From Prosthecobacter sp. (GTDB lineage: Bacteria > Verrucomicrobiota > Verrucomicrobiia > Verrucomicrobiales > Verrucomicrobiaceae), in the NCBI RefSeq assembly GCF_034366625.1, contig NZ_JAXMIH010000023.1:620001-684000 (forward strand): 64,000 bases of DNA, given 5' to 3'. Both the position numbers and the translations under genes were made by a program. The notes beneath the pieces are model-generated. The model worked only from the letters and a program-made list of their open reading frames with translations. It made no database searches and had not been told where the DNA came from. Each line of letters starts with the position of its first letter. Position 1 is the first letter of the stretch. Shown here in pieces: positions 20,007 through 49,186 of the stretch.

Positions 20007-20104
20007 GAGAGTGAGATCGGAGCTCCTCAGGCATAACAGCAATGCCGCGTCATGAACAGAACGAACTGCAAGAAGGCGGCCACGCCGCGAGTTTTGTCGC
20101 CTTC

Positions 20105-21586
20105 ATGCTCAGCCGTCTCCTCGCAATCACTTTCCTTCTCGCCAGCAGCGCCATGGCGCAGGTGAGCGGTGATGTTTCGGACCTGAAGGCGGGGCTGGTG
20201 GCGAAGTGGGATGAGGTGATGCCATTGGACACGGAAAAGATTTTGAGACTGCCTGCGGATGCTGAGGGAATGAAGCTGGAGGACTTCTCCGTGGCGTTTG
20301 TGTTCCAAGTCGAAAAGCAGCCAGACATCGAACACGGCAGTCACATTATGGCCATGGCCAACGAATCTCAGAACGGACTGCTGGACTGGCATCTTGGTCC
20401 GAAGGGCTTTTCCATCACGCTCGAAGGCCGGGGATTGGGGCATCCTGTTTCCGTCTCATCGCCGATGGAAGGCCGGTGGTGGCATGTGGTGCTCAATGTG
20501 AAAAGAGACGCCAGACAGGCGCTTTCTGGCATTTGGGTAAACGGTGTCGAGATGAGTTCTTGGCGTGAAGCCCTTGTTCCCATCGTGCTCGCCAAAGCCT
20601 TGTTTGATCCGTCCAGTCGAGGACTGGGCGGCCAGATCGCCAACCTGCGGCTCTACAATCGCGCTTTGACCCGCCCGGAAATCCTCGAACTCGCTTCCAT
20701 GCCGCCGATGGCGGGTTTGAAGCCGAAACTGGAGCCTTATGCAGGTTCGATGAAGCTGATGACGGAAGAAGTCATCGCCGTGCTCGGTGGCACGGAGGCT
20801 GTGGCGATGATGGAAGACGGGACGATGGAGGCGATGCTGATGACACAGTTTCCCGGCAGCCGCGTGAAAGTGCGGAATCTGGCATGGGAAGCGGACACGG
20901 TGTTCCGCATGGATCGTCCGATGAACTTCGGCGGCTTGAAGCAGCAGATTCAGCGAGCGCAGACGACTTCCGTGATGCTGATGTTCGGACGACAGGAGTG
21001 TTTAGAACGTGGCGAGGCCGGTTTGGCGGAGTTTCGGGCTGCGCTGGAAAAAATCGTGGCCGTTTGCGCGGAGGTGACACCTCGATTGGTGTTGGTGGAG
21101 CCGCTGGCGTTTGAAGGTGAGCTGACCAAGCACAACGCGACGCTGAAGAGGTATGCGGGGGTCATGGCTGAGATCGCGAAGCAGCATGCGGCCTTGTTCG
21201 CGGCTCAAGATGCTGATTTGAAACCGGGATCGACACGAGATGGCCTGAATCTGACTTCCACTGGAGCGGCACAGCTTGGTATGAGTGTGGCGGCGTTGTG
21301 GAATGGCGATTCAAAATCGCCACCCCGGGGCGGCGATTTGCAAACGCCGGATGCGCGCTTGAAGGCGCTGATCGGCGAGAAGAACACGCTTTGGCATCGC
21401 TACTGGCGTCCGGCGAACTGGGCATTCCTGCATGGGGATCGCACGGCGCAGCCGAGCAGCCGGGATCACACCGATCCGACGCAGCGCTGGTTTCCGGGTG
21501 AAGTGGAGCAATTCAAACCGCTGATCGAAGCGAAGGAGAACGAGATATGGAAACTGGCGAACGATCTGGGAGGCAAGCTGCCGTGA
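20105..21586 (+). CDS. Secreted LamG-like/SGNH-hydrolase-like protein
   Basis: A 493-aa exported protein with signal peptide MLSRLLAITFLLASSAMA. Residues about 35-205 look like a concanavalin/LamG sandwich (DFSVAFVFQVEKQPD; WWHVVLNVKRDARQA; LRLYNRALTRPEI). The rest (about 220-400) resembles an SGNH esterase, with a terminal DGLNLTSTGA motif matching the family's Asp/His block, although a clear GDS nucleophile near its beginning is not obvious (VLGGTEAV at that place). A REP-like insertion encodes residues near 400-415. It is translationally close to the second PVC cytochrome, suggesting joint breakdown of a substituted carbohydrate. Partner and substrate are inferred. Confidence 0.7.
   Translation: MLSRLLAITFLLASSAMAQVSGDVSDLKAGLVAKWDEVMPLDTEKILRLPADAEGMKLEDFSVAFVFQVEKQPDIEHGSHIMAMANESQNGLLDWHLGPKGFSITLEGRGLGHPVSVSSPMEGRWWHVVLNVKRDARQALSGIWVNGVEMSSWREALVPIVLAKALFDPSSRGLGGQIANLRLYNRALTRPEILELASMPPMAGLKPKLEPYAGSMKLMTEEVIAVLGGTEAVAMMEDGTMEAMLMTQFPGSRVKVRNLAWEADTVFRMDRPMNFGGLKQQIQRAQTTSVMLMFGRQECLERGEAGLAEFRAALEKIVAVCAEVTPRLVLVEPLAFEGELTKHNATLKRYAGVMAEIAKQHAALFAAQDADLKPGSTRDGLNLTSTGAAQLGMSVAALWNGDSKSPPRGGDLQTPDARLKALIGEKNTLWHRYWRPANWAFLHGDRTAQPSSRDHTDPTQRWFPGEVEQFKPLIEAKENEIWKLANDLGGKLP
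21305..21348. repeat. Hairpin repeat embedded in the LamG/SGNH-like gene
   Basis: GGCGATT, loop CAA, AATCGCC (21305-21321) is followed by the CCCCGGGG palindrome and a second, looser arm GGCGATTTGCAAACGCC (to 21348). It is read in frame as a SKSPPRGGDLQ peptide that breaks the surrounding protein pattern. It looks like a palindromic mini-repeat inserted in coding DNA. Confidence 0.65.
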
Positions 21587-24500
21587 AGTTCATGAAGGGA
21601 GCGCGGGCACTCCTGTCCGCTTTTGGAAGCGTTATGTGGCGGGCAGGAGTGCCCGCGCTCCTCTCGATGAGCATCGCGTTCGCCCAGCAAGCGAAGAAGA
21701 AAGGCATCTCCGTCGGCGAACCACCGGCGGATCATTCGCCGGAGGCGGAGCTAAAATCGTTCAAGGTGCTCGATGGCTTCGAGGTGAACCTGTTTGCGAG
21801 CGAGGCGGACGGAATTCCGAATCCGATCGCGATCCGTTGGGATGAACGCGGGCGCTTGTGGGTGTTGCAGACGAGTGACTATCCGCAGGCGAAGCCGGGG
21901 ACAGTGTCGGATGACAAGATCATCATTCTGGAGGATACGAATCACGATGGTCGCGCCGACAAGAGCACAGTCTTCACCGGTGGACTGAGTCAGCCGATGG
22001 GCATGGAGCTCGCGCCGCGTGATGCGGGGGTGAAATCGCCCAACGGGCACTCGGTGTATGTGGGCGAGGGCGAGAAGCTGTGGCTGATGCACGATGACGA
22101 TGGCGATGATCGCGTGGACCGGCGTGAGGTGGTGTTCAGCGGCTTCGGCACGGGGGATACACATCAGTGCCTGAACAGCTTCATCTGGGCGCCGGATGGG
22201 GCGCTGGTGATGCATCAGGGGCTGCACTGCTACTCGCGCGTGACAACGGTGCATGGCACGAAGACGCTCTACGGCGCGGGCTTCTGGCACTACTACCCGA
22301 AGAGCGGTCGGCTGAATCCGTATCCAACCGGCATGCCGGCGAATGCCTGGGGCACGGCCTTCACGAAATGGGGCCAGCCAATCATGGTGGCGGGCGCGGC
22401 AGGCATGTTTTGGGCGCGGCCGATGGAGGTGAGCACGTCGCTGGAGGAAGACTCGCATGTTTCCAATCGCCACGGCATCCCCCATTTCCTGCTGGAGCGC
22501 TTTCAACTGCCCTACAGCGGCCAGATCATCAAGACGGACGGCCTGCGGAAGTTCTGCGGCGTAGACATCGTGGGGAACACGCACTGGCCGGAGTCGATGC
22601 AGGAGGAAGTCATCAGCGGCGGGTTCTTTGAGAACGCGGTGTATCGCCACAAGCTCATACCGCACAGCGAATTCCCCAGCGGCATGGAGGCGGTGGAGCA
22701 GCCCGCGCTCATCACCAGCGACAACGTGGCCTTCCGGCCGATTGACGTGCGCTTCGGCCCGGAAGGCGCGCTCTACATCGCCGACTGGTATGATCCGATC
22801 ATCGGCCACTATCAGGCGAGTTTCCGGCATCCGAACCGGGATGCGAAGCATGGACGGATTTGGCGCGTGGTGGCGAAGGGGAGAGCCAGTTCTCAGTTCT
22901 CAGTTCTCGGTTCGCAGTTGAGCAATGCGGAACTGCTGAAGACGTTGGAACGGGGTGATCGCTGGCATCAGTATCAAGCGCAGCGGGAGTTGGCGGGGCG
23001 GTCGGGTACTGAGGTTGTGAAGGAGCGGGCGGTTGTATCGGAATCCGACCTGTTTGGGGAGCAAGGCACACTTGGATACGACCACACCCGGGTTGCATGG
23101 CAGATGCACATGATTCATGAACAGCCCAATGAGCAATTGCGAATAGGTTTGCATTCCGACGATCCCTGGCGGCGCGTGCTGGCGGCCCGTTGTCTGGGAC
23201 AATGGTATCCTGTCGATGATGGCGACTACAATCTCAGGAGGCTTGTTTTGGATGATGTAGCCATTGTTCGTCTCGAAGCCGTTGTTGCCGCTGCGAAAAT
23301 CGATTCACCCACAGCCATTAAAACAGCTTTGGAAGTTCTGGACAAGCCGATGGACAGTTTCATTGAGCGGGCGTTGTGGCTGGCGGTGCATGCGACGGCA
23401 CCGCAGTGGAAGAGGCCGCCGTTCGAGATTTTGAACTCGCTGCCGCCGAAGCATCTGGCGTTTTTGGTGGAGAAGGAGGGCAGCGCGGAGTTGCTGGGCG
23501 TGGTGCGCACGATGCTGGCGCAGAAGGGCGAGACGATGCCGCCCGAGACGCGGCGTGGGCTGGTGGTGGCGCTGGTGCGCAAGGGTGAGCCGAATGACAT
23601 GCTGATGGCGCTGAAGCTGGGCGTGAAAGATCAGGCGGTGCTGGAGGATTTGGCGGCTGCGGCTGCGCAACGTGACCTCAAGACGCCGGAAGGGGCGGAA
23701 GCGGTGCTGCTGGGGATTTTGAAGGACGGGAACGAGGCGCAAAAGGTGGCGGCGTGCGCGCTGGCGGGCGCTTGGCGGCTTAGGAGCGCGGATGCCCTCA
23801 TCCGCGAGCTTTTGAAGGCGGGTGAGGGCACCCGCGCTCCGGCTTTGATGGCGCTCTCACGATTGGGTGAGCCGGTGGAGACGTTTGAAGGCTTCGTAAA
23901 GGACGCAAAGCAATCGTGGCCGGTGCGCACAGCGGCTTTGACGGTGCTGGCGGAGAAAAAGCCGGTGGTAGCAGGTCAATTGGCGGCAGAGACGATTTCG
24001 AGCATCACAGACGCGGAAGCGATGCGGGCGTGGCTGGCATCGTTGTTGTCGCGTGAGGCCTCCCTTGCGGCCTTGGCGAAGGCCTTGGATACCAAGCCGT
24101 GCTCCTCTGAAGCGGCGAAGCTGGCGATGACCGTGCTGACAGCGGCAGGCCGTGGCGATGCGGTGCTGACGACGGCGTTCGGGAAGATTTTGGGCGTGAA
24201 GAATGTGGTGCCGGCTTATGACGCGACCTGGGTGATCGCTTTGGCGGCGGAAGTGAAGGCCAATGGTGATGCGGTGAAGGGAAAGGCCGTTTTCCATGCG
24301 CCGCTGTCGGGCTGCGTCGCGTGTCACAAGATCGGCGGCCAGGGCGGCATCGTGGGGCCGGAACTGGACGCGGTAGGACGTGGCGTGCCGGTGGAACTCT
24401 TGATCGAGGCCGTGGTGTGGCCGAATCGACAAATCAAGGAGGGCTATGTGGCGACAACGTTGACGCTGAAGGACGGTCGCAAGCTGCAAGGCTACAAGGT

Positions 24501-24684
24501 GAGCGAGGCGGGCGGGGAACTGCAGTTGCGGGAGCTGGCGAGCGGCCAGACGAGCCGGTTCACGGCGGCGCAAATCGCGGAGAAGCAGGAGGCGGGATCG
24601 CTGATGCCGGAGGGGCTGATCATGAACATGACGCGGGAGGAGTTGCGGGATTTGGTGGCGTATTTGGGTGCGTTGGGAAGATGA
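21583..24684 (+). CDS. PVC-type membrane-bound dehydrogenase/cytochrome c protein (second copy)
   Basis: A 1033-aa secreted protein. The GTG at 21583 overlaps the previous stop (GTGA) and has GGGAGG nine bases upstream; the ATG at 21592 is the alternative. The signal peptide (to about residue 37, SIAFA-QQA) is largely encoded by a REP hairpin pair. The propeller (about 60-440) carries EDTNHDGRADKS and DDDGDDRVDRRE calcium-like loops, then come HEAT-like repeats (about 470-870) and a cytochrome domain with CVACH at 911-915 and MPEGLIMNM near the end. Another REP pair and a heptamer repeat lie in the frame. It is related to the protein at 16213 but clearly diverged. Probable role: periplasmic carbohydrate or alcohol oxidation. 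Confidence 0.92.
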   Translation: MKFMKGARALLSAFGSVMWRAGVPALLSMSIAFAQQAKKKGISVGEPPADHSPEAELKSFKVLDGFEVNLFASEADGIPNPIAIRWDERGRLWVLQTSDYPQAKPGTVSDDKIIILEDTNHDGRADKSTVFTGGLSQPMGMELAPRDAGVKSPNGHSVYVGEGEKLWLMHDDDGDDRVDRREVVFSGFGTGDTHQCLNSFIWAPDGALVMHQGLHCYSRVTTVHGTKTLYGAGFWHYYPKSGRLNPYPTGMPANAWGTAFTKWGQPIMVAGAAGMFWARPMEVSTSLEEDSHVSNRHGIPHFLLERFQLPYSGQIIKTDGLRKFCGVDIVGNTHWPESMQEEVISGGFFENAVYRHKLIPHSEFPSGMEAVEQPALITSDNVAFRPIDVRFGPEGALYIADWYDPIIGHYQASFRHPNRDAKHGRIWRVVAKGRASSQFSVLGSQLSNAELLKTLERGDRWHQYQAQRELAGRSGTEVVKERAVVSESDLFGEQGTLGYDHTRVAWQMHMIHEQPNEQLRIGLHSDDPWRRVLAARCLGQWYPVDDGDYNLRRLVLDDVAIVRLEAVVAAAKIDSPTAIKTALEVLDKPMDSFIERALWLAVHATAPQWKRPPFEILNSLPPKHLAFLVEKEGSAELLGVVRTMLAQKGETMPPETRRGLVVALVRKGEPNDMLMALKLGVKDQAVLEDLAAAAAQRDLKTPEGAEAVLLGILKDGNEAQKVAACALAGAWRLRSADALIRELLKAGEGTRAPALMALSRLGEPVETFEGFVKDAKQSWPVRTAALTVLAEKKPVVAGQLAAETISSITDAEAMRAWLASLLSREASLAALAKALDTKPCSSEAAKLAMTVLTAAGRGDAVLTTAFGKILGVKNVVPAYDATWVIALAAEVKANGDAVKGKAVFHAPLSGCVACHKIGGQGGIVGPELDAVGRGVPVELLIEAVVWPNRQIKEGYVATTLTLKDGRKLQGYKVSEAGGELQLRELASGQTSRFTAAQIAEKQEAGSLMPEGLIMNMTREELRDLVAYLGALGR
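21598..21661. repeat. GGAG-type REP pair encoding the signal peptide of the second PVC cytochrome
   Basis: The left element is GGAG (21598-21601) with stem GCGGGCA, loop CTCC and arm TGTCCGC (to 21620, one G-T mismatch). The right element is inverted: GCGGGCA-GGAG-TGCCCGC (21639-21656) followed by GCGCTCC (to 21661). Both match the single element at 49164-49186. The pair is fully within the reading frame. Confidence 0.85.
22888..22920. repeat. Heptamer repeat (AGTTCTC)3-GGTTCGC inside the second PVC cytochrome
   Basis: Three AGTTCTC units, then GGTTCGC and AGTTG, form a 7-bp-periodic run. Read on the other strand it ends in the same GCGAACCGAGAACT core as the repeat at 17139-17170. It encodes a SSQFSVLGSQLS linker between the propeller and the HEAT region. 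Confidence 0.8.
23783..23840. repeat. GGAG-type REP pair inside the HEAT region of the second PVC cytochrome
   Basis: Left: GGAG (23783-23786), stem CGCGGATG, loop CCCT, arm CATCCGCG (to 23806), a perfect 8-bp stem. Right, inverted: GCGGGTG, AGGG, CACCCGC (23818-23835), then GCTCC to 23840. It is translated in frame as LRSADALIRELLKAGEGT, which fits a helical repeat. Confidence 0.85.
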
Positions 24685-49163: not shown

Positions 49164-49186
49164 GGAGCGCGGGCACTCCTGCCCGC
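49164..49186. repeat. Single GGAG-type REP hairpin after E2
   Basis: GGAG (49164-49167), then stem GCGGGCA (49169-49175), loop CTCC and arm TGCCCGC (49180-49186). It matches the right-hand member of the pair at 21598-21661 exactly over the hairpin. It lies 4 bp after the E2 stop and 13 bp before the next start. Confidence 0.85.

Follow-up and report, generated by a model that had tools for sequence, protein, structure and literature searches.

Close to its start, a cytochrome gene contains in its reading frame two REP units with GGAG heads, which form a 64-nt inverted pair at positions 21598–21661 of the window (the whole 64,000-nucleotide stretch of Prosthecobacter sp. DNA that was analysed). 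This pair is in all likelihood translated and makes up the greater part of the export signal of the encoded protein. An ordinary insertion of a REP pair just past a stop codon, which would have rebuilt the signal peptide of the cytochrome, probably accounts for the observations as a whole (at a probability of roughly 0.8).

The gene (21583–24684, forward strand) encodes 1033 residues from a GTG start, with DUF7133, HEAT and cytochrome c domains. Its product exceeds the cut-offs of both profiles for PVC-type heme-binding CxxCH proteins, TIGR02604 (N-terminal; 186.4 bits against 122.2) and TIGR02603 (heme; 106.0 bits against 68.15). As in c-type cytochromes generally, such a CxxCH protein has to be exported. 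The upstream gene (LamG-like/unknown, 514 residues; 20042–21586, forward strand) ends in a TGA that sits inside the tetranucleotide GTGA, an overlap shared by the cytochrome GTG at 21583, and the Shine-Dalgarno sequence GGGAGG (21568–21573, forward strand) lies 9 bases ahead. Both this sequence and the RTGA(A) overlap are conserved in close orthologues, whether these carry the REP pair or lack it, and GTG 21583 is thus likely the ancestral start of the cytochrome. The gene calls and some N-terminus assignments are home-made, as is the crude signal score used below.

Read from this start, the REP pair translates as GARALLSAFGSVMWRAGVPAL, which corresponds to the n-region and the larger part of the h-region of the putative export signal. 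The first unit (21598–21620, forward strand; GGAG head, then GCGGGCA-CTCC-TGTCCGC) encodes GARALLSA, the spacer or loop (21621–21638, forward strand) encodes FGSVMW, and the inverted second unit (21639–21661, reverse strand) encodes RAGVPAL when read on the forward strand. Translation confirms what an earlier note on this DNA had seen, a REP pair wholly in frame, and the peptide it gave is part of the one above. The adjoining LSMSIAFA (21662–21684, forward strand) appears from orthologue alignment and the crude score to be the end of the ancestral signal peptide, with a predicted cleavage after A34. The assembled signal, MKFMKGARALLSAFGSVMWRAGVPALLSMSIAFA/QQ (the slash marking putative cleavage), is compatible, by eye, with a basic n-region, a hydrophobic h-region and an A-X-A ahead of the cleavage site; its home-made score of 27 is reached by 4% of internal-Met controls, and an ordinary orthologue, in G022, scores lower (24.7). 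Among the six frame and orientation options for the pair, only the observed one yields a good score (27.0), the remaining ones giving 14–20 or a stop.

Comparison of orthologue N-termini, which the earlier note had named as a check, revealed the same in-frame pair in two further species (G023 and G031) and MKKVL-type signals or a different REP in others. In all three species with the pair it begins 15 nt past the start, has equal length and keeps the frame open, with zero indels and zero stops in the REP stretch. The N-termini read KGARALLSAFGSVMWRAGVPALL in the window, KGARALLPAVGSALWRAGVPALL in G023 and RGARTLLSAVTCALLRAGVPAVL in G031, and the palindrome matches per 23-nt stem number 22, 19 and 18, respectively. 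Values of pN/pS in the REP codons (0.09/0.30 for window–G023, 0.20/0.15 for window–G031 and 0.16/0.33 for G023–G031) give a weak indication of purifying selection, being clearly low only for window–G023 and near neutral for window–G031; weak purifying selection on these codons is what would be expected of a signal peptide.

The MKKVL-type signals occur in G022, G033, G034, G021 and G027. The MKKVLLSFSSFW signal of G022, G033 and others was considered as a repeat in its own right and rejected, as it had one match at 3 mismatches in the source genome. A near relative, G052 (locus L006), has another GGAG-headed inverted REP pair, GGAGCGCACGCGTCCCGCGTGC / GCACGCGGGACGCGTGCGCTCC, with the stem GCACGCG; it lies in frame after the same GTGA, at the same site as the window pair, ahead of LVLLFMLLSMNIAFAQQ. 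The REP state is patchy on the trees, with 3 changes for 3 species, and the tree of the upstream gene differs from that of the cytochrome, a pattern that points to recombination or repeated insertion or replacement at this locus. The earlier note had proposed that a mobile palindrome became, or replaced, the secretion signal. Replacement fits the orthologues, in which an older n/h-region stands where the REP pair now lies; the start codon and the c-region LSMSIAFA, by the same comparison, are apparently older than the REP, such that the signal would have been rebuilt, not created from nothing.

Two further start codons, ATG 21592 and ATG 21634, would leave REP codons within the signal peptide either way. 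Translation from ATG 21634 would produce a short signal, MWRAGVPALLSMSIAFA, and place the left REP unit in the 5' untranslated region, maybe as a translation-control hairpin. A GGAAG lies 4 nt ahead of this codon, its 17-residue peptide scores an equal 27.0, and the treatment of N-terminal REPs by Di Nocera (2013; PMC3733652) includes the caution that many of them are truly extragenic. Against this start, the GTGA overlap and Shine-Dalgarno sequence are kept in close orthologues, REP-free ones included, G023 and G031 have TTG and CTG, respectively, in place of this ATG, and none of the three species has a broken frame in the left REP unit. We consider a start at ATG 21634 unlikely.

Alternatively, the upstream gene and the cytochrome gene might be co-transcribed and the pair retained between them as a terminator or a regulatory hairpin, with coding as a by-product. 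The hairpin is strong (−32.3 kcal/mol when folded as DNA; z −9.7 against shuffles) and REPs are mostly located after stop codons, but in G023 and G031 the palindrome decays while frame and chemistry stay, and the start region is predicted to fold less stably as RNA there, at −57.9 and −61.0 kcal/mol, respectively, against −78.8 kcal/mol in the window. A retained hairpin is thus quite improbable as the main reason for the pair. Finally, an accidental open frame with the true start at or beyond 21667, and a protein exported otherwise or not at all, is very improbable: the window has an ATG at 21667, the start that the earlier note had set against its own reading, but it yields only MSIAFAQQ, a CxxCH protein lacking an export signal, the codon is GTG in G023, and the frame runs through the REP without indels in three species.

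That the pair is a genuine mobile-type repeat is evident from its structure and distribution. The arms (21598–21620 and 21639–21661) are 23 nt each and 96% complementary, with a loop of 18 nt. The unit GGAGCGCGGGCACTCCTG has 3 copies in the window, where 0.17 would be expected, and the 23-nt unit, with 3 mismatches or fewer allowed, has about 31 copies genome-wide; the reversed control has 0, which identifies the unit as a true dispersed repeat. The consensus, GGAGC-GCGGRCA-CTCY-TGYCCGC, is a palindrome with a 5' tetranucleotide head, GGAG, that is complementary to the CTCC loop, as expected of a REP, although about 31 copies in a 6.6-Mb genome is a low number for such an element. Inverted pairs in a BIME/REPIN arrangement are present at 21598–21661 and elsewhere. 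The stand-alone hairpin reported by the earlier note at 49164–49186 (forward strand, 4 nt past a stop codon) does carry a REP unit; it is a single unit, not the 64-nt pair. With its GGAG head, the element falls outside the GTAG and CGTC REP superfamilies. It was detected in 57 of 68 family genomes, and a reversed pattern in none. Among surveyed copies partly selected by start-codon pattern, the 4 bases 5' of the head show strong conservation, with the pattern GA[AG][AG] (G 78%, A 94%), and may belong to the element or to the site it targets. The genome contains 11 Y1 transposase-like genes. One of these, a Y1_Tnp gene at C8:454433-454714, lies between two GGAG REP pairs (a REPtron; L091:3043-3855), as a Y1 tyrosine transposase of the RAYT type would, and matches NCBIfam REP_Tyr_transpos at 64 bits, below the cut-off of 80.

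The positions of other copies are consistent with insertion after stop codons. Ten of 19 intergenic copies start within 20 nt past a same-strand stop, as compared to 4.7% of intergenic positions; these counts come from samples free of the start-codon-pattern selection that partly shaped another copy sample. Since 221 of 1182 stops (about 19%) have the next start within −30 to +11 nt, about 2 of 10 post-stop insertions should strike a start, and 2 of 10 do, so the insertions need not be aimed at signal peptides in particular. Six REP copies lie within same-strand genes of the source genome. As compared to orthologues, in-frame REPs have replaced a linker in a RhaD/E-type aldolase/short-chain-dehydrogenase fusion (L092:3054-3107) and a loop in another DUF7133 cytochrome (L085:3050-3072), which indicates that REP-encoded peptides are tolerated in the genus. 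Decayed or longer forms of the loop REP occur in relatives.

A second gene in the same genome provides a parallel. An HtrA-like PDZ protein (L086) has the N-terminus VTSLKGARTLLSAGLFLFVTIAHA/ESPRP, in which a GGAG REP forms the predicted signal peptide; this REP lies 15 nt past the start and 11 nt past the upstream stop. The same REP signal occurs with 1 mismatch in G056, in decayed form in G055 and perhaps in G031. When the 180 nt ahead of the aligned part were searched in 25 HtrA-like orthologues with 1 mismatch allowed, TTCGTCATTC was found in 15 and ATGACGAATG in 17 (0.15 and 0.05 expected). The repeat reads, for example, SSFVIRHSALLFLL and makes up the putative signal peptide in most species (orthologues L136-L158); the ATG often comes from the repeat, in some cases behind a stop that lies close to the ancestral start. 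Although the window genome and G052 group as sisters (100/100), their repeats at this signal differ. In G023, 4 of a sample of 18 TTCGTCATTC contexts fall in apparent export signals, those of a multiheme cytochrome, a sulfatase and a lipoprotein with a lipobox (L262, L286 and L287, named by sequence and not by family search) and of the HtrA-like protein. Elsewhere in G023, TTCGTCATTC is seemingly in frame within an IspG-like protein (L278).

A search of 68 genomes for a Shine-Dalgarno sequence, start and REP in succession returned only 3 clear signal peptides, the other matches being mostly C-terminal, internal or upstream. In a quarter of the source genome (1.66 Mb), de novo 14-mer repeats showed no enrichment in the first 30 codons relative to other regions, and a motif scan of the same quarter found the GAR signal in no gene but the window cytochrome. 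Repeat-built signals thus seem rare in the source genome.

These observations suggest the following order of events. A GGAG-headed, RAYT-associated REP pair would have inserted right after the stop of the upstream gene and, owing to the stop/start overlap GTGA, fallen into the signal-peptide codons of the cytochrome. By chance the frame would have read GAR[AT]LLSA...WRAGVPAL, a stop-free sequence with basic residues and a hydrophobic run. The old n/h-region would have been replaced and the start codon and cleavage-site end retained. The signal peptide presumably kept working, being sequence-tolerant and requiring only a general chemistry, and later selection may have preserved its character even as the palindrome eroded at the DNA level in sister species.

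Intragenic REPs, Rickettsia palindromic elements (RPEs) and one enterobacterial fusion of a repeat with a signal peptide are already known. GTAG/CGTC REPs, including those of Opitutus terrae (Verrucomicrobia), are described as intragenic monomers and dimers read in frame (PMC3733652). The GGAG REP resembles the elements described there in its in-frame monomers and dimers, its position less than 20 bp past upstream stops and its RAYT association, and differs in its head; the passages of that paper on N-terminal REPs deem most of them probably non-coding and do not mention signal peptides. RPEs are palindromes found in frame in many unrelated proteins and retained (PMC10969869). The GGAG REP is likewise inserted in frame in unrelated protein genes and kept, and by analogy appears to work like an RPE, although RPEs are about 150 bp long and reside in a different host, whereas the 64-nt REP pair has a putative coding role in a signal peptide. 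A MITE-like RU-2 repeat was reported in 2007 in the predicted signal peptide of Yersinia YPO1552 (PMC2759123); that case involves another element and one gene with no decay series, whereas the present one concerns a REP/RAYT family and extends to several species and to 2 or more genes. Our search of the open-licence literature found no earlier description of a RAYT-type REP acting as a signal peptide, a decay series or recurrent repeat exchange in the same signal.

We tentatively suggest, with somewhat less than even confidence, that post-stop insertion of mobile short repeats is a main driver of signal-peptide turnover in the genus, with several unrelated repeat families serving as ready-made export-signal cassettes, some with their own start, that are gained and lost by the same exported genes from one sister species to another. 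The cytochrome would provide a concrete route from mobile DNA to a working targeting signal, a route explained by the simple geometry of a stop/start overlap and insertion after stops. It would be wrong to write off every N-terminal REP as a mis-annotated start, and natural series of sister species allow a direct test of how new signal peptides arise.
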